Below are positions 31,019-62,194 of a stretch of 64,000 nt of DNA, piece after piece. The translations under genes were made by a program, and so were the position numbers. Position 1 is the first letter of the stretch, and each line of letters begins with the position of its first letter. The stretch comes from Actinomycetota bacterium (GTDB lineage: Bacteria; Actinomycetota; Acidimicrobiia; Acidimicrobiales; Acidimicrobilacustridaceae): positions 1 to 64,000 of the forward strand of contig JACPNV010000055.1 of assembly GCA_016185305.1 (NCBI GenBank), given 5' to 3'. The notes under the pieces are model-generated. The model searched no databases, was not told the DNA's origin, and worked only from the letters and a program-made list of their open reading frames with translations.

Positions 31019-31021
31019 GCG

Positions 31022-31648: not shown

Positions 31649-31650
31649 CG

Positions 31651-37932: not shown

Positions 37933-37935
37933 ATC

Positions 37936-39901: not shown

Positions 39902-39905
39902 CGTG

Positions 39906-40894: not shown

Positions 40895-40898
40895 TCAC

Positions 40899-42923
40899 AT
40901 GCTGAACCTCATCTGGCTCGTTCCCGCGTTGCCGTTGCTCGGCTTCCTCGTCCTGTTGTTCTTCGGCAGCAAGATCGGCGATCCGCTCGCGGGGTGGCTC
41001 GCCACCTTCATGGTGGGCGCGGCGTTCGTGGTCAGCCTCGGTTTGCTGACCGGTCTCGTCAACCAGCCCGGCAACACGTTCCAGCAGGTGTTGTACACGT
41101 GGGTCCCGGCGGGCGACTTCAACGTCGACGTGGGCTTCTACCTCGATCCGCTGTCGATGACGCTGCTGCTCGTGATCTGTGGCATCGGCGGGCTCATCCA
41201 CCTGTACGCCGTGGGCTACATGCAGGGCGACCCCCGCTACCACCAGTTCTTCGTCTACTTCAACCTGTTCGTCTTCTCGATGCTCATGCTCGTGCTCGGC
41301 GACAACCTGCTGCTCACCTTCCTCGGTTGGGAGGGCGTGGGCGCGTGCTCGTACTTCCTCATCTCGTTCTGGTTCGAGCGGAAGTCGAATGCGTCCGCCG
41401 CCAAGAAGGCCTTCGTCACGAACCGGGTCGGTGACTGGGGCTACCTGGTCGGCATGTTCATGTCGTTCTTCGTCTTCGGGTCGCTGAGCTACGCGGACAT
41501 CCTCCCCAAGGCACCGGGTGTCACGCAGGCGACCGCGACGTTCATCGTGCTGTTCATGCTCGTGGCTGTGGTCGGCAAGTCGGCCCAGATACCCCTGTAC
41601 CTGTGGCTCCCCGACGCCATGGCGGGCCCGACGCCGATCTCGGCTCTGATCCACGCCGCCACCATGGTGACCGCGGGCGTCTACCTGCTCGTGCGCCTCA
41701 ACCCGCTGATCGCCGCCTCCTACGGCTGGGTGCCGTGGGTGATCGCGGTCATCGGGGCGATCACGCTGTTCGTCGCGGCCGTCCTCGGCTGCGTGCAACG
41801 CGACATCAAGAAGGCGCTCGCGTACTCCACGGTCAGCCAGCTCGGTTACATGGTGATGGCCGTGGGCGTCGGCGGCTACTCCGCTGCGGTCTTCCAGCTC
41901 GTGACCCACGCGGCCTTCAAGGCCACGCTGTTCCTCGGCGCCGGCGGGGTGGTCCATGGCATGGGCGACGAGCAGGACATGCGGAGGTTCGGCGGGCTCA
42001 AGAAGCCCATGCCGGTCATCTACTGGTGCATGATGATGGCGTCGCTCGCCATCTCTGGCATCGTGCCGTTCTCGGGCTTCTGGTCCAAAGACGACATCTT
42101 GGCGTTCACCTGGAACGCCGGGTTCAACGGTCCGAACAGCAGCCCGCTGGGCATCGTGCTCTACCTCGTCGGCCTCTTCACCGCCGTGCTCACGGGCATC
42201 TACATCTTCCGGATCGTCTACCTGACCTTCCACGGCCGGGCCCGCTACGACGATCCGGTGCCCGAAGACATCCTCCAGGACAACGCGATCAGCGAGGCGG
42301 AGTACGCCGATGGCGATCTCGAGGGTGACCACATCGAGATCCACGACGGGCACGCGCACGAACCCATCCACCCGCACCAGCCGGGGTGGCTCATGCTCGG
42401 GCCGGTCGCCGTGCTGGCGTTCCTCTCGGTCGTGATGGGCTTCATCAACCTGCCGTTCGGCAAGGCCGACTTCCTCCAGAGCTTCCTCGAGAAGGTGAGC
42501 AACCTCGAGTTGGCTCCCGCCGGGAACCTCGCCGCCATACCGGTCAACAACCTGCAGACGATCGTCATGCTCGCCATCGGGACGTCGTTCGGCGCCGCCG
42601 GCATCTTCGTTGCCTACCGCCTGTTCAAAGCGGAGAAGCTGCAAGAGCTACCGATCGTCGGCAAGCTGCCGCTCGACCCGTACAACCAGCTCGTCACGTG
42701 GTTCATGGGCCATCCCGGTCGCGTGATCTTCGACATGGTCGAGTGGTTCGATCGGACGATCATCGACGGTGCGGTCAACGGGGTCGGCAAGGTGGTTGCC
42801 GTCGCCGGTGAGGGGATCAGGCGCGTGCAGACCGGCTACGTCCGCACCTACGCCCTCGGGGTCGCCCTCGGCGCCGTGCTGATCCTCGCGTTCGTCGTCA
42901 CGAGGGTGCTGAGCCTGTCGTGA
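40899..42923 (+). CDS. nuoL: NADH-quinone oxidoreductase subunit L (set 1)
   Basis: A 674-residue Mrp-antiporter-like proton pump at the distal end of the membrane arm. The helix-five Glu is in FLGWEGVGACSYFL, followed by the lysine segment AAKKAFVTNRVGD, PLYLWLPDAMAGPTPISALI and STVSQLGYM. The C-terminal lateral helix region follows a His/Glu/Asp-rich loop near residue 470-495. The stop overlaps the nuoM GTG (GTGA). Confidence 0.95.
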   Translation: MLNLIWLVPALPLLGFLVLLFFGSKIGDPLAGWLATFMVGAAFVVSLGLLTGLVNQPGNTFQQVLYTWVPAGDFNVDVGFYLDPLSMTLLLVICGIGGLIHLYAVGYMQGDPRYHQFFVYFNLFVFSMLMLVLGDNLLLTFLGWEGVGACSYFLISFWFERKSNASAAKKAFVTNRVGDWGYLVGMFMSFFVFGSLSYADILPKAPGVTQATATFIVLFMLVAVVGKSAQIPLYLWLPDAMAGPTPISALIHAATMVTAGVYLLVRLNPLIAASYGWVPWVIAVIGAITLFVAAVLGCVQRDIKKALAYSTVSQLGYMVMAVGVGGYSAAVFQLVTHAAFKATLFLGAGGVVHGMGDEQDMRRFGGLKKPMPVIYWCMMMASLAISGIVPFSGFWSKDDILAFTWNAGFNGPNSSPLGIVLYLVGLFTAVLTGIYIFRIVYLTFHGRARYDDPVPEDILQDNAISEAEYADGDLEGDHIEIHDGHAHEPIHPHQPGWLMLGPVAVLAFLSVVMGFINLPFGKADFLQSFLEKVSNLELAPAGNLAAIPVNNLQTIVMLAIGTSFGAAGIFVAYRLFKAEKLQELPIVGKLPLDPYNQLVTWFMGHPGRVIFDMVEWFDRTIIDGAVNGVGKVVAVAGEGIRRVQTGYVRTYALGVALGAVLILAFVVTRVLSLS

Positions 42924-44440
42924 TCGCAACGCTCCTCGCCCAGGTCGCGAACGCGGCCGAGACCGCCGGACCCGAGTTCCCGATCCTGCCGGCGCTCGTG
43001 TTCGTCCCGCTCTTCGGCGCCGTCGCCATCCTGCTCGTGCCGGCCACCCGACCCGACATGCACCGGCTGCTCGCCATCGTGTCGTCGGCCATGTCCGGGG
43101 TCATCTCCCTCTACGTCCTCAAGGTGTTCGAGGTCCCCGACCCGGGCTACCAGTTCGTCTCGGAGGTCACCTGGATCGGCTCGCTCGACATCCGGTTCTC
43201 GCTGGGCATCGACGGCATCTCGCTCTTCCTCGTCGTGCTGACGGGCATCATCTTCCCGCTGGCGATCTTCGCGGCGAAGCCCGAGCACTCCGAGAAGGGC
43301 TACTACTTCTGGCTCACGCTGCTGATGGCCGGCTGCATGGGTGTGTTCCTCGCCCTCGACCTGCTGCTGTTCTTCTTGTTCTTCGAGATCACGCTGGTGC
43401 CCCTCTACATGCTCATCGGCAAGTGGGGCCACGGCCGCCGGGTGTACGCCGCCACGAAGTTCTTCATCTTCACCATGCTCGGCTCGATGTTCATGCTCGT
43501 GTCGATCGTGGCGCTTGCCTACATCGCGAAGGCCGGTCCGGGTGGCACCGTCAGCTTCGACTTCCGCAAGGTGGTCGAGGCCGACCTGTCGACTGGTACC
43601 GGCCGCTGGTTGTTCCTCGGCTTCGCGGTCGCGTTCGCGGTGAAGACGCCGATGTGGCCGGTGCACACGTGGCTTCCCGACGCGCACACCGAGGCCCCGA
43701 CCGCCGGTTCCATCGACCTCGCGGGCATCCTCTTGAAGCTCGGCACGTTCGGCTTCCTCCGCTACGGCCTGTTCCTCTTCCCCGAGGCGTCGATCTGGGC
43801 CGCCCCGGCCTTCCTCGCGCTCGGCACGATCGGCATCGTCTACGGCGGCATCGTCGCGGCCATGCAGAAGAACTTGAAGCGCCTGGTCGCGTACTCGTCG
43901 GTCTCGCACATGGGCTTCGCCATCATCGGTCTGTTCGCGCTGAACGTGGAAGGCATCGAGGGCGCGATCCTCCAGATGGTCAACCACGGCATCATCACCG
44001 GCGGACTCTTCATCCTGCTCGGCTACCTCTACTCGCGCCGGCACACCTACGAGATGTCCGAGCTTCGCGGCATCCAGCGCAGCGCGCCGGTGTTCGCAGG
44101 CATCTTCATGCTCGTGATGCTGGCGTCGGTCGGCCTCCCCGGCCTCAATGGCTTCGTCGGTGAGTTCCTCGCGCTGCTCGGCACGTTCCTGGCCAATCAC
44201 CTCTGGGCGATCATCGCGGCGACGGGCGGGATCCTCTCCTCGCTGTACCTCCTGTGGGCCTACCAGCGGGCGTTCCACGGCATCCCCGACGAGAAGAACG
44301 CGAGGTTCGCCGACCTCAAGCTCAACGAGCGCCTGGTCATGGTGCCGCTCCTCTTCCTGATCGTGCTGCTCGGCGTGTACCCGAAGCCCCTGCTCGAACG
44401 CATCGAGCCGTCGGTGCGAGCGACCATCGCGGGCCCCTGA
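42920..44440 (+). CDS. nuoM: NADH-quinone oxidoreductase subunit M (set 1)
   Basis: A 506-residue antiporter-like subunit. The essential Glu is in FLFFEITLVPLYMLIGKWG, with proton-path segments KTPMWPVHTWLPDAHTEAPT and LKRLVAYSSVSHMGFAI. It starts at GTG 42920, overlapping the nuoL stop. It is followed by nuoN after 30 nt, the one gap of moderate size here that is not bridged by a small ORF. Confidence 0.95.
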   Translation: MIATLLAQVANAAETAGPEFPILPALVFVPLFGAVAILLVPATRPDMHRLLAIVSSAMSGVISLYVLKVFEVPDPGYQFVSEVTWIGSLDIRFSLGIDGISLFLVVLTGIIFPLAIFAAKPEHSEKGYYFWLTLLMAGCMGVFLALDLLLFFLFFEITLVPLYMLIGKWGHGRRVYAATKFFIFTMLGSMFMLVSIVALAYIAKAGPGGTVSFDFRKVVEADLSTGTGRWLFLGFAVAFAVKTPMWPVHTWLPDAHTEAPTAGSIDLAGILLKLGTFGFLRYGLFLFPEASIWAAPAFLALGTIGIVYGGIVAAMQKNLKRLVAYSSVSHMGFAIIGLFALNVEGIEGAILQMVNHGIITGGLFILLGYLYSRRHTYEMSELRGIQRSAPVFAGIFMLVMLASVGLPGLNGFVGEFLALLGTFLANHLWAIIAATGGILSSLYLLWAYQRAFHGIPDEKNARFADLKLNERLVMVPLLFLIVLLGVYPKPLLERIEPSVRATIAGP

Positions 44441-44470
44441 GGCGGGCCCGCAAGCGGGGGCCGGGCGCTG

Positions 44471-46270
44471 ATGGTCGCCGCCCTCGTTGCCCAGGCCGGT
44501 GCGGCCACGTCCACGATCCCGTCGCTTTCGGGGGCGCCGGCCGCATCGGCGGTGACGACCGCCGTTCCGGGCACCGACCCGAACGCCATCAACACCATCG
44601 CCACGCCGCCCATCGACTGGTCGGCCATCATGCCGATGGTCGTGCTGTTCGCCGGCGCCGTGCTCCTCATCACCGTGACCTCGTTGATGCGGCGCAAGCC
44701 GAAGGGCTTCTACGCGGCGTGGACGATCATCACCGTGCTGATCGCCATGGCCACGGCCGTGCCCCTGTGGGCACGCGTGCAAGGCTGGACCGACATCGCC
44801 GGCCAAACGGCCTTTCTCGGCCTCGAGTACCAGCCCCCGTTCTTCGGTCCGTTCAGCGCCGTCGCCGGCGCGGTGGGCGTCGACGGCTTCACGATCTTCG
44901 CCACCTTCGTGATCTGCATCAGCGTGGCCCTCGGCGCGCTGGCGGCCGACAGCTACCTGCGGCGCGAGGGCCTCGAGGGCCCCGAGTTCTATGTCCTCAT
45001 GCTGATCAGCGCGGCGGGCGGGGTGCTGCTGGCCTCGTCGAACGACCTGATCGCGCTCTTCCTCGGGCTGGAGACGATGTCGATCGCCGTCTACGTCATG
45101 GCGGCCATGCACCTGAAGCGGGTGCAATCCCAAGAAGCCGGCATGAAGTACTTCGTGCTCGGCGCGTTCTCGAGCGCGTTCTTGCTCTACGGCATCGCCA
45201 TGCTCTACGGCGCGACCGGCACCACCAACCTCATCGGCATGAAGAACGTCCTCTCGGCAACCATCCCGCTCAACAACGCGCTGTTGATGCTCGGCTTCGG
45301 CTTCGTGCTCGTCGGTCTGGGCTTCAAGGTCTCGGCCGTGCCGTTCCACTCCTGGAGCCCCGACGTCTACGACGGTGCCCCGACGCCCGCCGTCGTCTAC
45401 ATGGCGTCGGGTGTGAAGGTGGCCGCGTTCGCCGGCATGGTCCGGGTCTTCGTCGTGGCCTTCGGGCAGTACGCCGCGGATTGGCAGCCGATCGTCTACG
45501 CCCTCGCCGTGCTGTCGCTCGCGGGTGGGGCCGTGCTCGGCGCAGTGCAGACCAACGTGAAGCGCATGCTCGCCTACTCGTCGATCAGCCATGCCGGGTT
45601 CTTGCTGATGGCGGTCGAGGCCTCCAACGGCGTCGGCACGTCCGCTCTGCTCTTCTATCTCGCCGTCTACGTCTTCATGGTGGCCGGGGCGTTCGGCGTC
45701 GCCGCCCTCGTCGGGCGGCAGGGCGACGGCCGCCACTCACTGGACGACTACCGCGGCCTCGGCCGCACCAACCCGCTGCTGTCGGCCTCGCTCGTGGTGT
45801 TCCTGCTGGCCCAAGCGGGCGTGCCGTTCACGAGCGGCTTCCTCGCCAAGTTCTACGCGATCGGCGCGGCGGTGTCGGCCGGCTCGACCTACCTCGCCGT
45901 CGTCGCCGTGATCTCGTCGGTCATCGCCGCGTTCATCTACCTCCGCATCATCGTCGCCATGTACATGAGCGAGGGTGGCGACGGTGGCGCGGAACTCCGC
46001 CCCACGCCGGAAGATCACATCCGCGTCCCCGCTACCGCGGGGTTCGGCATCGCCCTCTGCGTGCTGGTCACCATCGGGTTCGGCCTCTTTCCCGACACGC
46101 TGACGCGCCTGTCCGAGCAGGCGACCCCGGCGCTGGTCGAGGAGGTCACGCCGCCCGGCTCGGGCCAGGCGACTGCGGGCGGTCCCACCGGTCCGATCGC
46201 GGTCGACCCTACCGGCGGCGGGTCCCCGGGCGGCGCGACCGGCGCTCCAGCCGGCGGACCGGGCGGCTGA
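44471..46270 (+). CDS. nuoN: NADH-quinone oxidoreductase subunit N (set 1)
   Basis: A 599-residue antiporter-like subunit next to NuoK. The Glu/Lys path is in LFLGLETMSIAVYVMAA and then KRVQSQEAGMKYFVLGAFSS, followed by FKVSAVPFHSWSPDVYDGAP. An Ala/Thr-rich segment of ~45 residues precedes the first core helix, and a Gly/Pro-rich tail of ~45 residues ends the protein; both are longer than in most NuoN. It is the last gene of the bc-nuo run and meets the convergent protease gene. Confidence 0.94.
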   Translation: MVAALVAQAGAATSTIPSLSGAPAASAVTTAVPGTDPNAINTIATPPIDWSAIMPMVVLFAGAVLLITVTSLMRRKPKGFYAAWTIITVLIAMATAVPLWARVQGWTDIAGQTAFLGLEYQPPFFGPFSAVAGAVGVDGFTIFATFVICISVALGALAADSYLRREGLEGPEFYVLMLISAAGGVLLASSNDLIALFLGLETMSIAVYVMAAMHLKRVQSQEAGMKYFVLGAFSSAFLLYGIAMLYGATGTTNLIGMKNVLSATIPLNNALLMLGFGFVLVGLGFKVSAVPFHSWSPDVYDGAPTPAVVYMASGVKVAAFAGMVRVFVVAFGQYAADWQPIVYALAVLSLAGGAVLGAVQTNVKRMLAYSSISHAGFLLMAVEASNGVGTSALLFYLAVYVFMVAGAFGVAALVGRQGDGRHSLDDYRGLGRTNPLLSASLVVFLLAQAGVPFTSGFLAKFYAIGAAVSAGSTYLAVVAVISSVIAAFIYLRIIVAMYMSEGGDGGAELRPTPEDHIRVPATAGFGIALCVLVTIGFGLFPDTLTRLSEQATPALVEEVTPPGSGQATAGGPTGPIAVDPTGGGSPGGATGAPAGGPGG

Positions 46271-50099: not shown

Positions 50100-50564
50100 A
50101 TGCTCGCCGCGATCTCCGCGCCGTTTTCCCAGGCTGTTTCACAGGCGGTTGCCGACCCCGCGACATCGTCGGGCGCGGTCGAGTACTCCGATTTCGTGCG
50201 GCAATACCTCACGGTCGCCATCTTCAGCGGATTGGCGCTGGCCATGGTGGCCCTCATGCTCGGCATGGGTGCGATGCTCCGCCCGTCGAGCGGCCGCAAA
50301 GGCGACTTCCAGTCCCAAAAGCAGATCGTCTATGAGTCCGGGGTCGATCCGGTTGGCCTGGGCTGGACCCAGACCCAGGTCCGCTACTACGTGTTCGCCC
50401 TGCTCTTCGTGTTGTTCGACGTCGAAGCGGTGTTCATCTTCCCGTGGGCGACGCGGCTGGAGGCCTACAGCTGGTTCGGCCTCGTCGAGATGGCCATCTT
50501 CATCTTCTTGCTCCTCCTCGGCCTCGTGTATGCGATCCGGAAGAAGGTCCTCCAGTGGCTGTAG
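50100..50564 (+). CDS. nuoA: NADH-quinone oxidoreductase subunit A (complex I set 2)
   Basis: A 154-residue three-helix subunit. The conserved loop is [10 protein letters not shown], with Ser where set 1 has the usual Cys (YECGI). Helix two reads [12 protein letters not shown]. The N-terminal ~40 residues are extra. It has no ribosome site and is probably leaderless. It opens an operon of eleven nuo genes without E, F or G. A 49-nt gap to nuoB2 is the only long gap in either operon not closed by a small ORF. Confidence 0.92.
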
Positions 50565-50613: not shown

Positions 50614-51114
50614 ATGGGTTTGGTAGAGAAGGGGAAGATCCCCAAGCGCCTGAACGATCTGCTCGCGCTCAGCCGGAAGTACTCGATCTGGTGCTACCAG
50701 TGGGGCCTGGCGTGCTGTGCCATCGAGATGGGCGCGGCGTTCGTGTCGCCCCGCTACGACATCATGCGGCTCGGCGTCATCCCGTTCCCAGCGAGCCCCC
50801 GGCAGGCCGATCTCGTCATCATCTCCGGCACGGTGACCGACAAGATGGCGCCGGCGGTGCGGCGGCTCTACGAGCAGATGCCCGACCCGAAGTACGTGAT
50901 CTCCATGGGCTCGTGCGCCAACTGCGGCGGCCCCTACTGGGACAGCTACTCGGTCACCAAAGGCGTCGACCAGTTGATCCCCGTCGATGTCTACGTGCCC
51001 GGTTGCCCTCCCCGGCCCGAGGCCCTGCTCGAGGGCATCGTGTTGCTGCAGGAGCGCATCCAGAGCGAAGACCCTGTCGAGCGGTTCCGAGGTGAACCAA
51101 TTGTCGTCGGCTGA
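50614..51114 (+). CDS. nuoB: NADH-quinone oxidoreductase subunit B (set 2)
   Basis: A 166-residue N2-cluster subunit: [20 protein letters not shown] and PGCPPRPE supply the cysteines. It lacks the C-terminal extension of set 1 NuoB and is clearly diverged from it, which argues against a recent duplication. nuoC2 begins inside its last codons, an overlap of up to 23 nt. Confidence 0.94.
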
Positions 51115-51796
51115 CACCGAAGCTCCCCCCGCTGACCAACAAGCAGAGGCGCCTCGCGACGAGCGGCGAGAGGCGCTGATCAGCCTGTTCAGCGCCGAGA
51201 TCGGTGACGCGGTCGTCGGCACCCACATCCGCGCCGGTGACGATCTGTGGATCCGCATCACTCGTGAGGCGTGGCTCGAGACCGCTCGCTTCGCCCAGCA
51301 GCGCCTGCGGATGGACTTCTTCGACTTTCTCTCCGGAATCGACTGGCGGCCGTCGCCCTACGGCCGCGACATGGACAGCCAGGAAGACATCGTGGTGCAC
51401 GGCACCGAGCCCAAAGAGCCTCCGGCCATGGCGACGGGTTACGCCGGCGGCGACACCCGCTTCCAGGTGTTCGCCCGGGTGTTCTCGACGGCCAGCCACG
51501 AGGGCGTGACGCTCAAGGCGGATCTGCCCGACGACGACCTGTCGATCGACTCGTGGGTCCCCGTGTACGCCGGCGCCAACTGGCACGAGCGTGAGTGCCA
51601 CGAGATGTACGGGTTCACGTTCAACGGCCACCCCTACCCGGTCAACCTGTACCTGCCGGGCGACTTCGAGGGCTTCCCGCTGCGCAAGGACTTCCCCCTG
51701 CTGGCCCGGCGCGTGAAGCCGTGGCCCGGCATCGTCGACGTCGAGCCCATGCCGGGGTCCGATGATGACGAAGGCGCTGAGGGGGGCGATAGCTGA
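51092..51796 (+). CDS. nuoC: NADH-quinone oxidoreductase subunit C (set 2)
   Basis: About 234 residues. The family motif appears as [20 protein letters not shown] followed by [18 protein letters not shown]. The C-terminal ~25 residues are acidic. Two starts are possible: GTG 51092, or TTG 51101, which has a near-perfect GAGGTGA ribosome site 6 nt upstream. Either overlaps the nuoB2 end, and I list the longer one. The stop overlaps the nuoD2 ATG (TGATG). Confidence 0.91.
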
Positions 51797-52980
51797 TGGC
51801 TGCGCCAACCGTTCCTGAGAGCAAACAGCTGCAGTACATCTCGCAGCAAGCGGCCGACAGCCGCGTCAACGTCGAGTTCGAGACCGAAGACGGCATGACG
51901 CTGAACATCGGGCCGCAGCACCCGGCGACCCACGGAACCTTGCGCATCATCACCCGGCTCGACGGCGAGCAGGTGATCTCGTGCGAACCGGTGCCCGGCT
52001 ACATGCACCGCGGCTACGAGAAGCTCACCGAGGTCCGCACCTACCCGCAGGTGACCACGCTCATCAACCGCATCGACTGGTTGGGCAGCTTCGCCAACGA
52101 GGTGCCGTTCATCCTCGCCGCCGAGAAGCTGATGGAGATCGAGGCGCCGCCGCGGGCGCGGTACATCCGCACGATCCTCTTCGAGCTCAGCCGCATGGCC
52201 AACATCGTGCTGTTCCTCGGCGACCTCGGGGCCCAGCTCGGCGGCGTGACCGCGGTGTTCTACGCGTTCCGCGATCGTGAGTTCGTGCTCAACCAGATCG
52301 AGGCGGTCACCGGCGGGCGCTTCCACCCGAACTTCGATCGCATCGGTGGGCTGAAGGACGACCTGCCGAAGGGCTGGATCGCCGAGACCAAGAAGTGCAT
52401 GACGCGCGTGCACGACTTCTGCGACGAGCTCGAAGACCTGTTGATCGGCAACGAGATCTTCCAGGCCCGCACGCGCGGCATCGGTGTCATCCCCGCCAAC
52501 GTCGGCCTGTCCTACGGTCTGTCCGGCGCCAACATCCGCGGCAGCGGCGTCGACTGGGACATCCGCCGCGACCACTGCCCGCCGGGCCTCGTCTACGACA
52601 AGGCCGACTGGAAGGTGTGTACCCACCCCGACGGCGATTCGTTCAGCCGCTCGTGGGTGCGCCTCCAGGAGGTGCGCGAGTCGGCCAAGATCGTCGACCA
52701 GTTGCTCGACTCGGTCCCGAGCGGCCCGGTCATGGCCAAGGTGCCCCGCATCATCAAGGTGCCCGAGGGCGAGGCGTACGTCGCCACCGAGAACCCGCTT
52801 GGCCAGATGGGCTACTACGTCATCTCCAAGGGCGACCTCGTGCCGTTCCGGGTCAAGATCCGTTCCGCGTCGTTCAACAACGTGTCGATCGTCCCGTGGG
52901 TGACCCGGGGCGTTTTCGTGCCCGACGTCATCACCATCCTCGCCAGCCTGTACTTCATCCTCGGAGACATCGACCGGTGA
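51796..52980 (+). CDS. nuoD: NADH-quinone oxidoreductase subunit D (set 2)
   Basis: A 394-residue quinone-site subunit. GPQHPATHGTLRIITRLDGE is followed by GYMHRGYEK, the HRGxEK form typical of Ndh, Fpo and many bacterial complexes, unlike set 1 (HTGMEW). No CxxC pairs for a NiFe centre are present at either end, so this is a quinone-reducing complex and not a membrane hydrogenase. It overlaps nuoC2 and nuoH2 by 1 nt each; in other operons E, F and G would lie between D and H. Confidence 0.95.
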   Translation: MAAPTVPESKQLQYISQQAADSRVNVEFETEDGMTLNIGPQHPATHGTLRIITRLDGEQVISCEPVPGYMHRGYEKLTEVRTYPQVTTLINRIDWLGSFANEVPFILAAEKLMEIEAPPRARYIRTILFELSRMANIVLFLGDLGAQLGGVTAVFYAFRDREFVLNQIEAVTGGRFHPNFDRIGGLKDDLPKGWIAETKKCMTRVHDFCDELEDLLIGNEIFQARTRGIGVIPANVGLSYGLSGANIRGSGVDWDIRRDHCPPGLVYDKADWKVCTHPDGDSFSRSWVRLQEVRESAKIVDQLLDSVPSGPVMAKVPRIIKVPEGEAYVATENPLGQMGYYVISKGDLVPFRVKIRSASFNNVSIVPWVTRGVFVPDVITILASLYFILGDIDR

Positions 52981-54005
52981 TGCTCGGTGACACCATCTTC
53001 GACGTCTACTGGTTCCAGACCGTCATCAAGGTGCTGGTCGTCGCGCTGTTGATCCCGACCACCGCGCTCATCCTCGGCATCGTCTTCCTCTTCAAGGTGA
53101 TGTCATGGATGCAGAGCCGCCTCGGCCCCCAAGAAGCCGGTCCGAAGGGCCTGTTGCAGCTGCTGGCCGACGGCGCCAAGTTCTTGCAGAAAGAAGACCT
53201 GACGCCGATGAGCGCCGACGTGCGCGTGTTCCGCATGGCGCCGATCGTGGTGCTGATGTCGACGTTCCTGCTGTTCGTCATCATCCCGGCCAGCCCCAAC
53301 CTGGTGGTGGAGAACCTGCCCAACGGCGTGTTCTTCGCGTTCGCCGTGTCGTCGCTGTCGGTCATCGGTGTGCTGATGGCCGGCTGGGCGTCGGCCAACA
53401 AGTACGCGCTGCTCGGCGGCATCCGCGCCGCCGGCCAGCTCATCGCGTACGAGCTGCCGATGGTGCTCGCCGTCGTCGGCGTCGTGATCCAGGCCGGCAC
53501 GCTCAGCATGAACGGCATCGTGGTCGCCCAGGCCGGCTTCCACATCGGCCCGATCCCGGTGCCCTACATCGTCACGCAGTTCCCGATGTTCCTCGTCTTC
53601 CTGGCCGCGACCCAAGCCGAGCTCACGCAGGCGCCGTTCGACATGCCCGTCGCCGAGTCCGAGCTCGTGGCTGGCTACCAGGTCGAGTACTCGGGCTTCC
53701 GGTTCCTGTTCTTCTTCATGGCCGAGTTCGCCACCGCGTTCGCCTTCGCCGCCATCGCGGCCACGCTGTTCCTCGGCGGCTACTACGTGCCCGGCCTCGA
53801 CATCAACAGCGGCATCTACTGGGTGCTCGGCCCGATCGTGCTGTTCACCAAGATCATGCTGGTGTCGTTCCTGATCTTCTGGTTCCGGTTCACCTATCCC
53901 CGGTTCCGTGAAGACCAGCTCCAGAGGTTCGCCTGGAAGTGGCTCATCCCGATCTCGCTGGTGTGGATCTCGGTGACCGCGTTGTTCAAGGTCTGGGTGG
54001 CATGA
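52980..54005 (+). CDS. nuoH: NADH-quinone oxidoreductase subunit H (set 2)
   Basis: A 341-residue membrane subunit with about eight helices. Conserved segments are [35 protein letters not shown] and [20 protein letters not shown]. The last reads TQAPFD where set 1 has NRPPFD, as in cyanobacterial and Fpo-like proteins. The stop overlaps the nuoI2 ATG (ATGA). It follows nuoD2 directly with no EFG genes between. Confidence 0.95.
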
Positions 54006-54541
54006 GTCCAGCACCGAGGTTCCAAAAGCCGCAGTTGCCCGGCATGCTCAAAGGGCTCGGGGTGACCTTCAAGGAGATGGTCAAGACCTTGAAGCCCGAC
54101 AGCATGGGCGGCGGGCCGGTCACCGTGCAGTACCCGCGCGAGAAAGAAGAGCCCGCGCCCCGCGCCCGTGGCGTCATCGCGCTGTACGAAGAGAACTGCA
54201 CCGCCTGCATGCTCTGCAGCCGTGAGTGCCCCGACTGGTGCATCTACATCGAGGCCCACAAGTACCTGGCGCCGCCGCGACGAGAGGGGGGCAAGCCCCG
54301 CCAGAAGAACGCGCTCGACCGCTTCGACATCGACTACTCGCTGTGCATGTACTGCGGCATCTGCGTCGAGGTGTGCCCGTTCGAGGCGCTGTTCTGGAGC
54401 CCCGAGTTCGAGTACTCCGAGCCCAAGATCGCCGACCTCTTGCACGACAAGACCAAGCTCGGCCTGTGGTTCGAGACGGTCCCCGACTTCGAGGCCTACG
54501 AAGGCGGCGCCGACGTCAAGGCGAAAAAGGTCCCGACATGA
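54002..54541 (+). CDS. nuoI: NADH-quinone oxidoreductase subunit I (set 2)
   Basis: A 179-residue 2[4Fe-4S] subunit with [15 protein letters not shown] (about residues 63-77) and [12 protein letters not shown] (about 112-123). In the absence of NuoEFG this is the outermost Fe-S subunit, so an external donor such as a ferredoxin would have to dock here, as in the photosynthetic NDH-1 and ferredoxin-using Fpo complexes (inference). ATGA overlaps with both neighbours. Confidence 0.94.
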
Positions 54542-55071
54542 CCAACGCTCCGACCTACCTGCCCGAGTACATCATGTTCGGCTTGATCGCGTCGTCGATG
54601 GTCGTCGCGGCGGTGCGCGTGGTCACGACGAAGAACGTCGTGCACGCCGCGCTGTGGCTCGTCCTCGTGCTCGGCGGTGTGGCTGGGCTGTTCATCCTGC
54701 TGGCGTCGGAGTTCACCGCCATCACCCAGGTGCTGGTCTACATCGGCGCCATCGTCGTGCTGTTCCTGTTCGGCATCATGCTGACCAGGGCGCCGCTCGG
54801 GAAGTCGGCCGACCTCGACAACAACGTCGCCCAACGCATCGTGGGCGCCCTCGTCGGGCTCAGCCTGCTCGGTGTCATGGTGTACGGGTTGGTCAACCGG
54901 TGGAGCGACCAGAAGATCGAGCTGGTCGGCTCCAGCACCCGCCAGTTGGGCCAGACCACCGAGCAGATCTCCGACTCGATCTTCTCCACCTACCTCGTCC
55001 CGTTCGAGGTCGTGTCGGTCTTGTTGCTCGCCGCGCTGATCGGCGCCATCGTCCTGGCGAGGAGGGACTGA
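54538..55071 (+). CDS. nuoJ: NADH-quinone oxidoreductase subunit J (set 2)
   Basis: A 177-residue five-helix subunit. The conserved helix-three segment is [20 protein letters not shown]. The loop between helices four and five is shorter than in set 1. It starts at ATG 54538 inside the nuoI2 stop (ATGA), and nuoK2 follows after 4 nt. Confidence 0.93.
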
Positions 55072-55075
55072 TCAC

Positions 55076-55411
55076 GTGCTGATCAACGCCTACCTCCTGC
55101 TGGCCGCGGTGCTGTTCTGCATCGGTGTGTACGGCGTGCTCGCCCGCCGCAACGGGGTGCTCGTGCTCATGTCGATCGAGCTGATCCTGAACTCGGTCAA
55201 CATCAACCTGGTGGCCTTTGGCGCCTGGTGGGGCGCGCAGCAGCCGTGCGGCGCCGCGCAGGGCTGCGCAGCCACCATCGGGCCGGTCTTCGCCTTGTTC
55301 GTCATCACCGTGGCCGCCGCCGAGGTGGGCGTGGGCCTCGCCCTCGTGTTGATGCTCTACCGCAACTTCAAGAGCATCGACATCGACCAAGTGGACTCGA
55401 TGAAGGGCTGA
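55076..55411 (+). CDS. nuoK: NADH-quinone oxidoreductase subunit K (set 2)
   Basis: A 111-residue three-helix subunit with membrane glutamates in [14 protein letters not shown] and [13 protein letters not shown]. An insertion with two cysteines ([12 protein letters not shown]) lies in the loop between helices two and three, absent from set 1; it could form a disulfide outside the cell. It starts at GTG 55076. A 55-nt gap to nuoL2 is bridged by a 17-codon small ORF. Confidence 0.93.
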
Positions 55412-55413: not shown

Positions 55414-55467
55414 GTGGATCGCGTCGAGGGATGGTGCCGCGTAGCGGCCGGTGAGGCGGGCCGGTGA
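55414..55467 (+). CDS. Candidate coupling small ORF between nuoK2 and nuoL2
   Basis: A 17-codon frame (VDRVEGWCRVAAGEAGR). GTG is 2 nt after the nuoK2 stop, and TGA overlaps the nuoL2 ATG (TGATG). The same layout is seen in the first nuo operon. Confidence 0.22.
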   Translation: MDRVEGWCRVAAGEAGR

Positions 55468-57773
55468 TGGATTCGGTCGGGATCATGGACAAGGTGTTCC
55501 TGCTGCCCCTGATCATGGCGAGCTCGTTCGTCATCATCTTGTTCGTCGGCAAGCGCTTCTCCGAACGGGTCACGTCGTCGATCGGCATCGGCGCGGTCGG
55601 CGCGTGCTTCGTCCTGTCGCTCGTCATCGGCGCCCAATGGATCAACCGGGTCGACAACCCCCCGACCGGGGCGGCTGCCGTGGCGGCGGAAGAGGCCTGC
55701 CTGGGCGGGCCCGGCGACGATCCGCAGGCCCGCGAAGGCGGCGGCCGTGGCGCCGAGCCAGGTTCCGCAGAGCGCGGTGCACCCACCGGCGCGGCCCCGG
55801 GCGAGTCGGCCGCGGTGCTGGGCCAGGAGGGCGGCGGATCGACCGAGAGCCCGAGCGCCGAAGGTGGTCAGGCGGAATCGGCCCAGGCCAAACGGGGCGA
55901 GACCATCCCGGTCTGCGCGAGCATCACCTGGTTCGAGACCGCCGTGTCCACCAGCCAGACCATCAAGTTCGAGGCGGGCACCGTCCTCGACGGCCTGTCG
56001 GCGCTGATGCTGTTCGTCGTCTCGATCATCTCGCTGCTCGTGCACATCTACTCCAAGGAGTACCTGCACGACGACCGCCGCTTCACGCACTACTACGCGT
56101 TCTTGAGCTTGTTCACCGCGTCGATGCTCTTCTTCGTCCTCGGGTCCAACAGCCTGCAGATGCTCGTGGGCTGGGAGCTCGTCGGCGTGTGCTCGTTCGT
56201 GCTCATCGGCCACTGGTGGGAAGAGGGGAACAACACCTATGCCGCCCTCAAGGCCTTCCTCACCAACCGGGTGGGCGACACCGGGCTGATCATCGGCGTC
56301 ATCGTGACGTTCTTCGCCGCCGGTGCCACCAGCTTCAACGTCTTCCGGCTCAACGAGGCCGCGCTCAGCGGCAAGGTGAGCTCGACCTTGCTGCTCATCG
56401 GCGCCATCGCCTTGTTCTGGGGGGTCACGTCGAAGTCCGGCCAGTTCCCGCTCCACACGTGGCTCCCCGATGCCATGGCCGGCCCGACGCCCGTGTCCGC
56501 CCTCATCCACGCGGCGACGATGGTCGTTGCCGGCGTCTACCTCATCGCCCGGCTCTACGGCGTCTTCTACGCCGGCCTGCAGATCAACAACAACACGATC
56601 AACTACGTCGCGTTCATCGGTGGCTTCACCGCGCTCATCGGCGCGGGCCTCGCGTTCGTCCAGAAGGACATCAAGAAGGTGCTGGCGTACTCGACGGTAA
56701 GCCAGCTCGGCTACATGGTGATGGCCCTCGGCGTCGGTGCGTGGACGGCGGCGGTCTTCCACCTGTTCACCCACGCCTTCTTCAAGGCCAGCATGTTCCT
56801 CGGGGCCGGCTCGGTCAGCCACGCCTGCCATCACACCTTCGACATGGACGAGATGGGCGGGTTGAAGAAGAAGATGCCCATCACGCGGTGGACGTTCATG
56901 TTCTCGGGCTTCGCGCTGGCCGGCATCTTCCCGTTCGCCGGGTTCTTCTCCAAAGACGAGATCCTCGCCGGAGCAGCCAACGGGCAGGGTGGCAACGCGT
57001 ACACGATCATGCTGGTCTTCGGCCTCGTCGTCGCGTTCATGACCGCCGCGTACATGGGTCGCACGTACTACCGCACGTTCGAGGGTGAGTACCGCGGGCA
57101 CGCCCATCCGCACGAGTCGCCGAAGATCATGACGATCCCGCTGATCATCCTCACCACGTTCGCGACGATCGGTGGCGTGGTGAACTTCCCCGGCAAGCTC
57201 ACCGAGTGGTTGCGCCTCCCCCAGACCTTCGGTGGGCGGCTCGAGCACTACGTGCAGCCCGAGTGGGCCGGGCGGTTCCCGACGCTCGACGTGGCCGAGT
57301 TCAACCCGTGGCTGGCGACCGGTTCGGTGCTGCTCGCGCTGCTCGGCATGTTCATCGGCATCGGCTGGTACGCGAACCGCCTCTATGAGCGCAAGCTGAC
57401 CGAGCGCAGCAAGGTGCTGCACGCCGGCTACACCTTCCTCGCCAACAAGTACTACCTCGACGCGCTCTACGAGAACGTCATCCGCGATCGCGGCGTCTTC
57501 CCGCTGGCGCGGGCCAGCTACTGGTTCAACCAGTACGTCGTAGACGGCATCGTCAACGCGGTCGGCGTCGGGTCGCGCTCGGTCGGCAACTTCCTCTACA
57601 AGTACCTCGACCAGGGCGCCATCGATGGTGCGGTGAACGGCACGGGCATCGTGTCCGACGAGAGCGGGCAGCTCCTCCGCCGCATCCAGACCGGCAAGGT
57701 CCAGCAATACGCGGCGCTGTTCTTCTTCGGTGCCACCGTCCTCACCATCTTCTTCGTCGTCTTCATCCGGTAA
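55467..57773 (+). CDS. nuoL: NADH-quinone oxidoreductase subunit L (set 2) with large loop insertion
   Basis: A 768-residue antiporter-like pump. Core motifs are VGWELVGVCSFVLIGHWW (helix-five Glu), FPLHTWLPDAMAGPTPVSAL and STVSQLGYMVMALG. Between the second and third helices, residues ~66-147 are a Gly/Glu/Ala/Ser-rich low-complexity insertion (for example EGGGRGAEPGSAERGAP) that set 1 NuoL lacks; it would lie on one membrane face. ATG 55467 overlaps a small-ORF stop; GTG 55464 is an alternative start. Confidence 0.94.
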   Translation: MDSVGIMDKVFLLPLIMASSFVIILFVGKRFSERVTSSIGIGAVGACFVLSLVIGAQWINRVDNPPTGAAAVAAEEACLGGPGDDPQAREGGGRGAEPGSAERGAPTGAAPGESAAVLGQEGGGSTESPSAEGGQAESAQAKRGETIPVCASITWFETAVSTSQTIKFEAGTVLDGLSALMLFVVSIISLLVHIYSKEYLHDDRRFTHYYAFLSLFTASMLFFVLGSNSLQMLVGWELVGVCSFVLIGHWWEEGNNTYAALKAFLTNRVGDTGLIIGVIVTFFAAGATSFNVFRLNEAALSGKVSSTLLLIGAIALFWGVTSKSGQFPLHTWLPDAMAGPTPVSALIHAATMVVAGVYLIARLYGVFYAGLQINNNTINYVAFIGGFTALIGAGLAFVQKDIKKVLAYSTVSQLGYMVMALGVGAWTAAVFHLFTHAFFKASMFLGAGSVSHACHHTFDMDEMGGLKKKMPITRWTFMFSGFALAGIFPFAGFFSKDEILAGAANGQGGNAYTIMLVFGLVVAFMTAAYMGRTYYRTFEGEYRGHAHPHESPKIMTIPLIILTTFATIGGVVNFPGKLTEWLRLPQTFGGRLEHYVQPEWAGRFPTLDVAEFNPWLATGSVLLALLGMFIGIGWYANRLYERKLTERSKVLHAGYTFLANKYYLDALYENVIRDRGVFPLARASYWFNQYVVDGIVNAVGVGSRSVGNFLYKYLDQGAIDGAVNGTGIVSDESGQLLRRIQTGKVQQYAALFFFGATVLTIFFVVFIR

Positions 57774-57788: not shown

Positions 57789-59477
57789 ATGCAACTTGCA
57801 CAAATCGTCGTCCAAGACACCGGGTCGTTCTTCCGAACGCCGCTCACCTACGTGGTGTTCATCCCCATCGTCGGCGCGCTCTTCATGATGCTGATCCCGA
57901 GGGCGCAAGAGTCCTTCATCAAGTGGGCCGCGCTCATCACGTCGCTCCTCGCCTTCGGTGTGTCGCTCTTCGTCGCCGCAAAGTTCGACTACAACGCGGC
58001 GAAGCCCGAGTTCTTCGCCAACCTGCCGTGGATCCCGGTGATCAACAGCCGCTACATCGTCGGCATCGACGGCATCTCGCTCCCGCTGTTGTTGCTGACC
58101 ACCTTCATCGTGCCGCTGTGCATCATCTACTCCTGGAAGCACTTCCCCGAGCCGCACAACCCGAAGGCTTTCCTCATCCTGATCCTGGTGCTCGAGACCG
58201 GCATGGTCGGCTCGTTCATCGCCCTCGACCTCATCTTGTTCTTCGTGTTCTTCGAGATCGTCCTGCTACCGATGTACTTCATGATCGGCGTGTGGGGTGG
58301 CGAGCAACGGCAGTACGCGTCGATCAAGTTCTTCCTCTTCACGCTGTTCGGGTCGGCTCTGATGATCATCAGCTTCCTGGCCCTCTACTTCCTGTCCGCC
58401 AAGGTGATGGTCGATGGGCAGCCGATGAACAGCTTCGACATGATGCTGCTGCCCGAACTGGCGCGAGGGATCTCGGCCACGTGGGCGCTGGTGATCTTCG
58501 GCGGTTTCTTCATCGGCTTCGGCATCAAGGTTCCGATCTTCCCGTTCCACACGTGGTTGCCCGACGCCCACACCCAGGCGCCGACGGTCGGCTCGGTCAT
58601 CCTGGCTGCCGTCCTCTTGAAGTTGGGCACCTACGGCTTCGTGCGCATCGCCGTCCCGATCCTTCCCGATGCGGCCCGAAGCTGGGCGCCATGGATCGGT
58701 CTGGTCGCCGTCATCGGCATCATCTACGGCGCGCTGTGCTGCCTGGCGCAGACCGACATGAAGCGCCTCATCGCGTTCTCGTCGGTCGCGCACATGGGCT
58801 TCGTGATGCTCGCCATCGCCAGCCTCACGCCCTTCGGCTTCAACGCCGCCGTGTTCGGCATGGTCGCCCACGGCCTCATCACCGGCATGCTCTTCTTCCT
58901 CGCCGGCTCCACCAAAGAGCGTTACCACACGCTCGAGATCAACCGGCTCGGCGGCCTGCTCGTGTCCGCGCCCCGCATGGGCTGGATCCTGGGCTTGACG
59001 GCCATGGCCTCGCTCGGACTTCCCGGCCTCGCCGGGTTCTGGGGTGAGTTCCCGGCCATCCTCTCGTCCTACAAACCGACGAGCCCCGACTACGTCACGT
59101 CGTTCTTCGGGGTCGAGATGCAGCCGCTGTTCCAGGGCTACATGGTGGTGGCCGTGCTCGGCACGGTCTTCGCGGCCGGCTATCTCCTGTGGCTCTACCA
59201 GCGCGTGGCGTTCGGGACACCGAAAGAAGAGTTCGCCCACGATCCGCACCTGCACGACGTGACGAAACCGGAATGGATCGCGTGGCTGCCGATGCTCGTC
59301 CTCATCGTCGTGCTCGGCGTGTACCCGAACCTCATCTTCCGCACGACCAACGACTCGGCGAAGCGGGCGACGGCGGTGCTCACGCGGCAGTCCGAGCAGA
59401 CTGGCGGCACGGGTGGAGAAGGCAGCGGCACCGGTGAAGCAGCACCGCCCCCGTCCGGCGGCGGGAACGGAGGCTGA
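57789..59477 (+). CDS. nuoM: NADH-quinone oxidoreductase subunit M (set 2)
   Basis: A 562-residue antiporter-like subunit. FVFFEIVLLPMYFMIGVWGG carries the essential Glu, followed by IKVPIFPFHTWLPDAHTQAP and MKRLIAFSSVAHMGFVML. It ends in a Gly/Thr-rich tail of ~30 residues. It starts at ATG 57789, and nuoN2 follows after 5 nt. Confidence 0.95.
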   Translation: MQLAQIVVQDTGSFFRTPLTYVVFIPIVGALFMMLIPRAQESFIKWAALITSLLAFGVSLFVAAKFDYNAAKPEFFANLPWIPVINSRYIVGIDGISLPLLLLTTFIVPLCIIYSWKHFPEPHNPKAFLILILVLETGMVGSFIALDLILFFVFFEIVLLPMYFMIGVWGGEQRQYASIKFFLFTLFGSALMIISFLALYFLSAKVMVDGQPMNSFDMMLLPELARGISATWALVIFGGFFIGFGIKVPIFPFHTWLPDAHTQAPTVGSVILAAVLLKLGTYGFVRIAVPILPDAARSWAPWIGLVAVIGIIYGALCCLAQTDMKRLIAFSSVAHMGFVMLAIASLTPFGFNAAVFGMVAHGLITGMLFFLAGSTKERYHTLEINRLGGLLVSAPRMGWILGLTAMASLGLPGLAGFWGEFPAILSSYKPTSPDYVTSFFGVEMQPLFQGYMVVAVLGTVFAAGYLLWLYQRVAFGTPKEEFAHDPHLHDVTKPEWIAWLPMLVLIVVLGVYPNLIFRTTNDSAKRATAVLTRQSEQTGGTGGEGSGTGEAAPPPSGGGNGG

Positions 59478-59482: not shown

Positions 59483-61018
59483 GTGCTCGCTGCTGTCGCA
59501 CCGATCCTCGCCCAGATCGCCCCTGGAGGGTTCCAGGGCCCGCCCGTCAATTGGGTCGCGTTCTCGCCGGAGGTGGTCCTCACCGCGACGCTGGTCGTGG
59601 TCGTGCTGGTCGACGTCTTCACCGAGCGCTACGACAAGGGCGCCATCAACACGCTCGCCGGAATCGGCGTGCTGCTGTCGTTGCTGTTCGTCGGCGTGGT
59701 CGTGGTGACGGCCAACAACAGCGAGTCGATGTTCGGTGGCGCGTACGTGGTCGACAACTTCGCGCTGATCATGAAGGCGTTGTTCTTGCTGTCGGGCTAC
59801 GTCGTCATCCTCATCTCCACGAACTACATCGGCGAAGGCGACTACTGGGAGGGCGAGTACTACCAGCTCATCCTGGCCTCGGTGCTCGGCATGCTCGTCA
59901 TGGCCTCGGCCCGCGATCTCATCAGCATCTTCATCGCCCTCGAGCTGCTGTCCATCCCCGCCTACATGCTGGCGGCGTGGCGCAAGCGCGACCTCAAGTC
60001 CGACGAGGCGGGCATGAAGTACTACCTGATGGGCGTCTTCGCCACGGCGGTGATGCTGTACGGCATGTCGTTGCTGTACGGCCTCACCGGCGACACGTTG
60101 CTGACCAAGATCAACGCGGCCATCAGCACCGGCACCAAACCGCCGGCGATCCTCATACTGGCGGTGATCTTCGTGCTCGTCGGGTTCGGCTTCAAGGTGT
60201 CCGCGGTGCCGTTCCACACGTGGGCACCCGACACCTATGAGGGCGCGCCGACGCCGGTGACGGCATTCCTCGCCGTCGCCTCGAAAGCCGCCGGCTTCGT
60301 CGCCCTCATGAACCTGGTGTTCATCGGCTTCCTCGGCCGGGCCGACATCGTGCAGCCGCTCATGTGGGCGCTCTCGGCGCTGACGATGACCGTCGGCAAC
60401 CTCATCGCGCTCCGGCAGACGAACGTGGTCCGGATGTTTGCCTACTCCGGTGTTGCCCAGGCGGGCTACATGCTCGCGCCGCTCGCCGTGGCCGGTTCGA
60501 GTGGCACCGACCCCAACGTCGCCGTGCGGTCGATCGTGACCTATCTGTTGATCTACGCGGCGATGAACCTCGGGGCGTTCGCGGTGGTGATCGCTCTTGC
60601 TCGCAAGACCCGCTCTGCGGAGATCACGTCGATGAGTGGCGCCTTCCACTACGCGCCGGGGCTGGCATGGTGCCTGACGATCTTCCTCACCTCGCTCGCC
60701 GGCATCCCCCCGTTCGGTGGGTGGTTCGCGAAGTTCTCGATCTTCCAGGCGCTGTTCACCGCGGCGACTCCGGCGGGCTACACGCTCGCTGTGCTGCTGG
60801 TGGTCAACTCGGTCATCGCCGCCTTCTACTACATGCGCGTCGTCCGGGTGATGGCGTTCGAGCCTGCCGACGATGTGGACATGACCCCGGTGAAGGTGCC
60901 TTCCTCGTTGCTCGTCGCGATGGGCATCACGGTCGTCGTCACCGTCCTCACCGGCGTGGTACCCGCGATCGTGAGCCAGTTCGCCAGCAGCGCGTCGCTC
61001 GTCGGCTTCGGAGGCTGA
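59483..61018 (+). CDS. nuoN: NADH-quinone oxidoreductase subunit N (set 2)
   Basis: A 511-residue antiporter-like subunit. The Glu/Lys path is in FIALELLSIPAYMLAAW and KRDLKSDEAGMKYYLMG, followed by FKVSAVPFHTWAPDTYEGAP. It starts at GTG 59483. It lacks the long N- and C-terminal extensions of set 1 NuoN. It is the last nuo gene of this operon; a methyltransferase gene follows after 22 nt. Confidence 0.94.
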   Translation: MLAAVAPILAQIAPGGFQGPPVNWVAFSPEVVLTATLVVVVLVDVFTERYDKGAINTLAGIGVLLSLLFVGVVVVTANNSESMFGGAYVVDNFALIMKALFLLSGYVVILISTNYIGEGDYWEGEYYQLILASVLGMLVMASARDLISIFIALELLSIPAYMLAAWRKRDLKSDEAGMKYYLMGVFATAVMLYGMSLLYGLTGDTLLTKINAAISTGTKPPAILILAVIFVLVGFGFKVSAVPFHTWAPDTYEGAPTPVTAFLAVASKAAGFVALMNLVFIGFLGRADIVQPLMWALSALTMTVGNLIALRQTNVVRMFAYSGVAQAGYMLAPLAVAGSSGTDPNVAVRSIVTYLLIYAAMNLGAFAVVIALARKTRSAEITSMSGAFHYAPGLAWCLTIFLTSLAGIPPFGGWFAKFSIFQALFTAATPAGYTLAVLLVVNSVIAAFYYMRVVRVMAFEPADDVDMTPVKVPSSLLVAMGITVVVTVLTGVVPAIVSQFASSASLVGFGG

Positions 61019-61040
61019 CGCGCCGGCGCGGGGAACAGCG

Positions 61041-62174
61041 ATGAGGTCGTTGGCTGATGAGCTCAGCGACCTGATCGACCGGTTCGGCCCGGTCCCGTTC
61101 GATCAGGTCATGGAGCTGGCGCTGTATGACCCCGACCGCGGGTTCTTCACGACGACCGGCGCCGCGGGGCGGCGCGGCGACTTCCTCACCAGCGCGGAGG
61201 TGGGCCCGCTGTTCGGTGCGGTCATCGCCCGGGCGCTCGACACGTGGTGGCGCGAGCTCGGTTCGCCCGACCCGTTCGTCGTGGTGGACGCGGGTGCCGG
61301 GACCGGCGCGCTGGCGCGCGCCGTGCTCGCGGCCAAGCCGCAGTGCGTGGGCGCGTTGACCTACCTCCTGGTCGAACGCTCCGCCGCGCGGCGAGGCCAG
61401 CAGGCGCGCGGGCTGCCCATCGTGCCGGCGGCGTTCGCGTTCCCGCCGACGGCCGTCGACGGCGACGGGTTCGCGGTCACCGTCGATGCGGGCACCGGCC
61501 CGCGAGCCGTCTCGATGGCCGAACTGCCGGCCGCGCCGTTCGCGGGTGTGGTCATAGCCAACGAGCTCCTCGACAACCTCCCGTTCCGCATCGTCGAGCG
61601 GGCGCGGGATGGGTGGAAGGAGGTGCGCGTCGGGCATGGCGCGGCTGGCTTCACCGAGATCCTCACCGAGTGCCCGCCTGAGCTCACGGCTGTCGCCGAT
61701 GCTGTCGCTCCCCAGGTCATACCGGGCTCGCGGCTTCCTCTCCAGCTCGCCGCGGCCGACTGGCTGGCCGCGGCCCTCGAGCGCCTGACCGCCGGCCGGC
61801 TCGTCATCGTCGACTACGCGGCGACGTCACCAGAGCTCGCCGCCCGCGGGCGCGGTTGGCTGCGCACCTATCGCGCCCATGAGCGTGGCACCGACCCGTT
61901 GCTCGACCTCGGCGAGCAGGACATCACGGCCGACCTCGCGGTCGATCAACTGGCCCGGGTCCGGCCTCCGACGTCCCGAACCACCCAGGCCGAGCTCCTC
62001 CGCACCTTCGGCATCGACGAGCTGGTCGCAGAAGGGCGGACGACCTGGCACGAGCGAGCCGCGATCGGCGATCTCGGAGCGATCCGCGGCCGCAGTCGCG
62101 TGCGCGAGGCGGAGGCACTCCTCGACCCGGCGGGCCTCGGCTCCTTCGCTGTCCTCCAGTGGGTCATGCGATGA
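61041..62174 (+). CDS. MidA/NDUFAF7-family SAM-dependent methyltransferase
   Basis: A 377-residue protein. It begins GPVPFDQVMELALYDPDRGFF, the family N-terminus, with a SAM-binding VVVDAGAGTGALARAVL (about 81-97) and IANELLDNLPFRIVE (about 171-185). In mitochondria NDUFAF7 dimethylates an Arg of NDUFS2, the NuoD homologue, and is needed for complex I assembly. Its place right after nuoN2 in the same direction fits a role in maturing this complex (inference). Bacterial members are often far from nuo genes. The ATG 61041 lies 22 nt after the nuoN2 stop. Confidence 0.87.
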   Translation: MRSLADELSDLIDRFGPVPFDQVMELALYDPDRGFFTTTGAAGRRGDFLTSAEVGPLFGAVIARALDTWWRELGSPDPFVVVDAGAGTGALARAVLAAKPQCVGALTYLLVERSAARRGQQARGLPIVPAAFAFPPTAVDGDGFAVTVDAGTGPRAVSMAELPAAPFAGVVIANELLDNLPFRIVERARDGWKEVRVGHGAAGFTEILTECPPELTAVADAVAPQVIPGSRLPLQLAAADWLAAALERLTAGRLVIVDYAATSPELAARGRGWLRTYRAHERGTDPLLDLGEQDITADLAVDQLARVRPPTSRTTQAELLRTFGIDELVAEGRTTWHERAAIGDLGAIRGRSRVREAEALLDPAGLGSFAVLQWVMR

Positions 62175-62194
62175 ACCACGTGCAGAGCCTCGCC

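Follow-up and report, generated by a model that had tools for sequence, protein, structure and literature searches.

A MidA/NDUFAF7-family gene linked to a second complex I gene set in Acidimicrobiia, with NuoD2 as candidate substrate

The MidA/NDUFAF7 family and its reaction are already known. Human NDUFAF7 is required for the symmetric dimethylation of Arg85 in NDUFS2 and for complex I assembly (PMC3829151; review PMC9006661), and in a yeast complex I, mutating the corresponding Arg leads to loss of the N2 cluster and of the quinone site (PMC8042128). The residue is reported to be dimethylated in the bovine, human, Pichia and Paracoccus proteins and unmodified in E. coli, the mark in Nqo4 of Paracoccus denitrificans being a symmetric dimethylation of the same Arg in a NuoD homologue (PMC3750175). 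A 2025 paper describes the role of bacterial MidA as known from in silico inference only, and also reports adenine and cytosine methylation for a Wolbachia MidA expressed in E. coli (PMC12455994). With regard to complex I itself, forms without the NADH module have been described, e.g. in Desulfitobacterium (PMC11238625), and S. ambofaciens has its nuoD2 at a site apart from nuoA2, B2, H2, I2, K2, L2, M2 and N2 (PMC8388888). Among open-licence PMC papers, we found no prior report of midA linked to a nuo set 2 or to nuoD2.

Here, such a linkage is described for a 64,000-nucleotide stretch of an acidimicrobial genome, the whole of which is referred to as the window, and is followed through the class Acidimicrobiia and the phylum Actinomycetota. 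In many actinobacteria, midA appears to go with the second complex I and NuoD2.

The midA locus and the two nuo sets

The window carries two sets of nuo genes (Table 1). Set 2 spans positions 50100–61018 in the order nuoA2, B2, C2, D2, H2, I2, J2, K2, L2, M2, N2, the assignments of A, H, I, J and K being based on translation and gene order. The genes nuoE, nuoF and nuoG are absent from this interval, which leaves 11 genes, and in the 80 class loci described below, searches with the set-1 proteins NuoE, NuoF and NuoG found no match within the set-2 clusters. Judged by its gene content, set 2 is an 11-subunit complex I without NADH module; it may take electrons from a donor different from NADH, or else could borrow NuoEFG from set 1. 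The two NuoD proteins were placed in a tree of 73 rows, a chosen subset that comprises the two from the window, 27 of 57 class NuoD2, 17 of the 24 NuoD2 paired with midA elsewhere in the phylum (see below), 19 rows from midA-less genomes, seven of the 17 NuoD1 that were fetched, and a single long-branched row of NuoD1-like type. The 64 NuoD2 rows form a single set (support 100/91), separate from NuoD1. Around the two sets, a proline-rich protein is encoded in between (46338–47498, minus strand) with the sequence HELGHLVGLDH, presumably a zinc-protease-like motif; 5' of set 1 stand a protein with two CxxCH haem motifs (27648–28793, plus strand) and, after it, a membrane protein without NCBIfam match (28796–29923).

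Table 1 Coordinates of midA, the nuo genes and the proposed modification site in the window
Feature	Position	Strand	Basis
nuo set 1, all 14 subunits A–N including E, F, G	29928..46270	+	NCBIfam, translations
nuoA2, first gene of set 2	50100..50564	+	translation, conserved order
nuoB2	50614..51114	+	TIGR01957, 210.7 bits
nuoC2	51107..51796 (start approximate, open frame from 50987)	+	PF00329, E 4e-28
nuoD2, proposed substrate, short NuoD type	51796..52980	+	PF00346, E 7e-76; best NCBIfam models are NuoD
Codon of NuoD2 Arg50 in GPQHPATHGTLR, proposed methylation site	51943..51945	+	counted on translation
nuoH2	52980..54001 (end approximate)	+	translation, conserved order
nuoI2	54002..54541 (start by inspection)	+	translation with two CxxCxxC motifs, conserved order
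nuoJ2	54538..55071 (start by inspection)	+	translation, order
nuoK2	55076..55411	+	translation, order conserved in relatives
nuoL2	55464..57773	+	PF00361 and PF00662
nuoM2	57789..59477	+	TIGR01972, 549 bits
nuoN2	59483..61018	+	TIGR01770, 398 bits, above cut-off
midA, MidA/NDUFAF7-family class I SAM-dependent methyltransferase, 377 aa, ATG start	61041..62174	+	PF02636, structural model

As originally predicted, midA starts 22 nt after the end of nuoN2 and its product is of the NDUFAF7/MidA type. The protein matches PF02636 (Methyltransf_28) with an E value of 7e-38 and 130.9 bits against a cut-off of 23.3 bits, covering profile positions 1–236 of 249, and this is the sole PF02636 match in the source genome (assembly 72% complete, 99 contigs). 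A structural model was built on the window protein and 32 relatives (pLDDT 92.2, pTM 0.91), and MidA/COG1565 proteins occupy the top five places among its structural matches: Burkholderia 4G67 and 4F3N (Z 34.7 and 34.5), Dictyostelium MidA 5ZU0 and 5ZTZ (both Z 34.3), and Rhodopseudomonas 1ZKD (Z 32.5). The best non-MidA methyltransferase reaches Z 14.3, so that the full-length MidA fold is modelled and not merely a Rossmann core; Foldseek agrees. In the alignment of 33 rows, G87 and G89 of a GAGTG motif are invariant, as is N174-E175-L176-L177-D178, a NELLD-type motif. The glycine-rich GAGTG is the presumed SAM-binding motif. On profile and model, the product is firmly placed in the MidA/NDUFAF7 family, with predicted methyltransferase activity. 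A study in Cell Reports (2018) reportedly argued for a proteobacterial origin in the MidA/NDUFAF7 context.

A scan of positions 60800–62400, which for promoters covered sigma-70-like sites, found neither promoter nor terminator and is no proof of co-transcription. On the 3' side, a GAF and GGDEF diguanylate cyclase (62226–63998) is encoded on the opposite strand, ending 51 nt from midA and cut by the window end.

Both NuoD proteins hold the Arg in the motifs quoted originally, i.e. Arg77 in HGVLRL of NuoD1 (codon 31879–31881) and Arg50 in HGTLRI of NuoD2, the latter invariant across 36 NuoD2 rows. The presence of this residue had been offered as support for a conserved function, a use that did not hold up. 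HGVLR is kept in each of the 17 NuoD1 examined from genomes that have neither midA nor nuoD2 (17 of 19 such genomes). Outside the class, the 19 NuoD2 read from midA-less genomes all have HGVLR or HGVFR; in E. coli the Arg is reported as unmodified (PMC3750175). Since NuoD proteins of midA-less genomes keep the Arg too, its conservation is not diagnostic of midA; being kept in every NuoD checked, with or without midA, it was rejected as evidence for MidA action. As a caution, conservation of this Arg tells nothing about its methylation.

Linkage and co-occurrence with nuo set 2 in the class

Linkage was followed in 80 class genomes, one for each of 73 midA-bearing genera (the window's own excluded) plus seven more, over stretches of up to 20 kb around midA in each genome. 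The original prediction had named a lack of linkage in any relative as an observation against it; by tblastn, nuoN2 precedes midA in the same orientation in 69 of the 80 loci, so the prediction was not refuted on this point. The gap between the tblastn matches is at most 350 nt in 50 loci and at most 1 kb in 53, whereas it amounts to 1–5 kb in eight loci and to more than 5 kb in another eight. Two loci with midA 2–4 kb from nuoN2 were inspected, and the intervening genes, which include Asp/Glu racemase-like and BP74_N proteins in one (L064) and an argininosuccinate-lyase-like protein in the other (L062), have no common pattern. Among the 11 loci without nuoN2, five have only a short piece of contig on the 5' side of midA (about 0.3 to 5.5 kb; L055, L081, L083, L087, L088). 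The other six (L059, L070, L074, L084, L085, L101) have room enough on the 5' side, yet nuoN2 was not found near midA, and in these midA looks truly unlinked to nuoN2.

By a second route, 80 named loci were found with the MidA alignment, mostly in records titled Acidimicrobiia, Acidimicrobiales or Actinomycetota, and nuoN2 lies 5' on the same strand in 74 of them. The remainder comprises four short or cut contigs (L125, L139, L161, L182), one locus in which nuoN2 was not found in 10 kb (L187), and one in which it is located 3' of midA on the opposite strand (L168). Five records from this set (L133, L134, L137, L158, L161) are titled Acidobacteria, Rubrobacter, Bifidobacterium breve or Dehalococcoidia while their MidA is of the window's class type, with nuoN2 before midA in four of the five at the threshold used; these genomes are probably mislabelled or mis-binned.

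The linkage of midA to complex I genes is thus real, old and conserved across the class, but it is a linkage to set 2 and NuoD2 and not, as first put, to complex I generally. Nor can it serve as the direct support for a bacterial function that had been claimed: linkage is not methylation, and the dimethyl-Arg of Paracoccus denitrificans was already the more direct evidence (PMC3750175).

The co-occurrence of midA with nuo operons, which the original prediction had proposed as a check, divides in the same manner. PF02636 was found in 122 of 148 class genomes. NuoD2 was called at 500 bits or more with the NuoD2 profile, or in the case of G119 from a NuoD2 split over two contigs, and is present in 128 of the 148, only a NuoD1-type match being found in the other 20. 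Accordingly, 121 genomes hold both midA and nuoD2, 19 neither, one midA only, and seven nuoD2 only. The midA-only genome (G108, 77% complete) still has two NuoN. All seven nuoD2-only genomes have a contig end close to nuoD2 or nuoN2: at most 3.4 kb of contig are left in G021, G039, G093 and G115 and 2.1 kb in G081, nuoN2 is cut at the contig end in G025, and 6.2 kb remain past nuoN2 in G109, where the same-genus genome G030 has midA 6.5 kb after nuoN2. The genomes with neither gene belong to families f3, f4 and f5, to f9 and f24 (in each case one member of the two sampled), and to f14 (three incomplete genomes). All 19 retain a NuoD (nuo set 1, NuoD1). Fisher's test of midA against nuoD2 gave 3e-17, a value that ignores relatedness; many class genomes share descent and are not independent trials. 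From these counts, including the 19 genomes that keep a NuoD with neither gene, it follows that midA tracks set 2 in the class and not complex I as such.

midA and nuoD2 elsewhere in the phylum

The phylum sample consisted of 198 genomes, 17 of them class genomes already counted. PF02636 was found in 66, of which 52 lie outside the class; one of these (G277) was set aside, leaving 51 midA-bearing genomes. Its contig L267 (G277:C498) is of the window's class type, with nuo set 2 and midA, within a genome of another family, and is probably mis-binned.

According to profile coordinates, nuoD2 is located within 7 kb of midA on one contig in 24 of the 51 genomes, with 229 to 6,942 nt between the profile matches and 20 pairs convergent, three tandem and one divergent. 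A binomial chance calculation for 24 of 51 (chance 1%) was set aside, as it ignores shared descent. The 24 genomes span seven families (f42, f43, f54, f63, f66, f77 and f80). Seventeen of the paired stretches were read; NuoD1 was not found near midA in any of them, and 16 showed no nuo gene besides nuoD2, the only exception being a 4.2-kb contig (L254) on which nuoC2 accompanies nuoD2. A search for NuoB and NuoN in 23 of the 24 genomes (all but G255) placed every match either on a different contig or at a distance from nuoD2 of more than 60 kb, the nearer NuoB being about 147 kb away in G169, 174 kb in G265, and about 302 kb in G193. A similar arrangement is seen in Nonomuraea gerenzanensis (L301), with nuoD2 at 8001–9113, midA 4.4 kb off, and no further nuo gene found in 17 kb. 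The f54 genomes are probably Streptomyces, because S. ambofaciens shows the same arrangement with nuoD2 apart from the nuo2 operon. In the tree, the paired NuoD2 fall into three well-supported groups, i.e. f42; f43, f77 and f80; and f54, f63 and f66, the latter two of which may be of one origin (support 90/55). In one stretch (L274:6903–8942), about 300 codons without Pfam match precede the NuoD domain in the nuoD2 open frame, perhaps due to a wrong start.

In the remaining 27 of the 51 genomes, nuoD2 does not lie within 10 kb of midA. One of the midA-bearing genomes (G232) has a single NuoD match, with a NuoD1-like score, and several others have one NuoD of intermediate score; by virtue of G232, the statement that MidA occurs only with NuoD2 was rejected at phylum scale. 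Conversely, 24 midA-less genomes with a NuoD2-like match were picked and 20 of them fetched. Nineteen carry a nuo2 operon with nuoD2 in place (families f42, f45, f46, f49, f60, f67 and f74), and the twentieth (L297) proved NuoD1-like. All midA-less NuoD2 rows but L293 form one group of 18 in the NuoD2 tree. That MidA accompanies every NuoD2 was therefore rejected outside the class, and the 19 nuo2 operons that occur where midA is missing mean that the second complex does not always depend on MidA.

Proposed role of MidA and comparison with known systems

We consider it likely that MidA is a protein-Arg methyltransferase that ends the apparent set-2 operon, dimethylates Arg50 of NuoD2, and aids assembly of the 11-subunit complex. 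The guanidino group of Arg50 would receive two methyl groups from MidA (GPQHPATHGTLR), and the modification would precede or accompany the joining of NuoD2 to NuoB2, near cluster N2 and the quinone site, where the mark would help the quinone module to assemble. Reaction, site and assembly role are carried over by analogy from the mitochondrial enzyme. NuoD2 rather than NuoD1 is the main substrate that we infer: the nearness of midA to a detached nuoD2 in other lineages makes NuoD2 a candidate, and this nearness, even where nuoD2 is apart from the operon, together with the homology suggests as the likeliest course that MidA modifies NuoD2 before NuoB2 joins. That NuoD1 would be spared is the bolder step, its one basis being the co-occurrence.

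Several other explanations have to be weighed. MidA might methylate both NuoD1 and NuoD2, its site after nuoN2 merely coupling expression to the second complex; the motif is nearly identical in the two proteins, and the modified protein in human and Paracoccus is the only NuoD homologue named (PMC3829151, PMC3750175). We regard this as rather unlikely: of the 20 class genomes in which nuoD2 is absent, 19 are also without midA, and in the 17 of these that were read the Arg of NuoD1 is still in place. The linkage in the class covers all of set 2 and does not single out NuoD2, so the target could be another part of it (NuoB2, NuoC2) or an assembly partner, and nuoC2 is indeed found beside nuoD2 in one stretch where the latter is detached (L254). 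Still, elsewhere midA is near nuoD2 where nuoD2 is apart from both nuoB2 and nuoN2, and a different target is considered quite improbable.

The methylation of adenine and cytosine reported for Wolbachia MidA in E. coli (PMC12455994) would fit a DNA or small-molecule methyltransferase whose linkage is incidental. Against the class-wide linkage and co-occurrence, the nearness to nuoD2 elsewhere, and the presence of Dictyostelium MidA among the best structural matches, we deem such an activity more improbable still. Least credible of all is a neighbourhood without functional meaning, inherited as a gene order from one ancestor. Much descent is shared in the class and inheritance can preserve gene order, but midA and nuoD2 are jointly absent in f3, f4 and f5 and, within f9 and f24, in one member of the two sampled from each; apart from the class, the NuoD2 tree also has the paired NuoD2 in three distinct groups.

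Building on methylation of NuoD2 as the preferred reading, a possible if tentative extension is that MidA of Actinomycetota is dedicated to one isozyme, modifying NuoD2 and not NuoD1, so that the Arg mark would separate the assembly of the two complexes and a detached midA and nuoD2 would form an enzyme–substrate module. Should the f54 genomes be those of Streptomyces, as seems to be the case, NuoD1, NuoD2 and MidA would coexist in a single cell. This would offer a cultivable test of which of the two isozymes carries the modification and of whether assembly requires it.

In comparison with the known systems, human NDUFAF7 and Dictyostelium MidA (PDB 5ZTZ, 5ZU0, 5ZZW) belong to the same Pfam family as the window MidA, and the Dictyostelium protein shares its full-length fold (rmsd 2.7 over 341–342 residues) at 21–22% identity. 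A further likeness is that midA in the window is linked to a homologue of NDUFS2, the substrate of NDUFAF7. Unlike these proteins, the window gene is bacterial and placed after nuoN2, and its putative partner is the NuoD of a complex without NADH module. The COG1565/DUF185 proteins of Burkholderia thailandensis and Rhodopseudomonas palustris have the same fold. As to gene context in other bacteria, two rhizobial relatives of midA are located between lgt and pgeF and one on a Comamonas plasmid near neither lgt/pgeF nor nuo genes, with no annotated nuo gene within 6 kb of any of the three. Nqo4 of Paracoccus carries the mark on the same Arg as proposed for NuoD2, likewise in a bacterial NuoD homologue. 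Unlike the window's set 2, Paracoccus complex I has the NADH module, and the mark there belongs to such a complex. The passages on the Paracoccus mark name neither a bacterial enzyme nor a gene linkage (PMC3750175). The Desulfitobacterium complex I resembles set 2 in being without NADH module, and a term search gave no mention of a methyltransferase (PMC11238625). Finally, the nuo2 operon of Streptomyces with its separate nuoD2, as in S. ambofaciens, is matched by the arrangement of the f54 genomes; a term search of the main text of PMC8388888 returned neither MidA nor a protein methyltransferase, and nuoD2 beside midA is seen in the present data.
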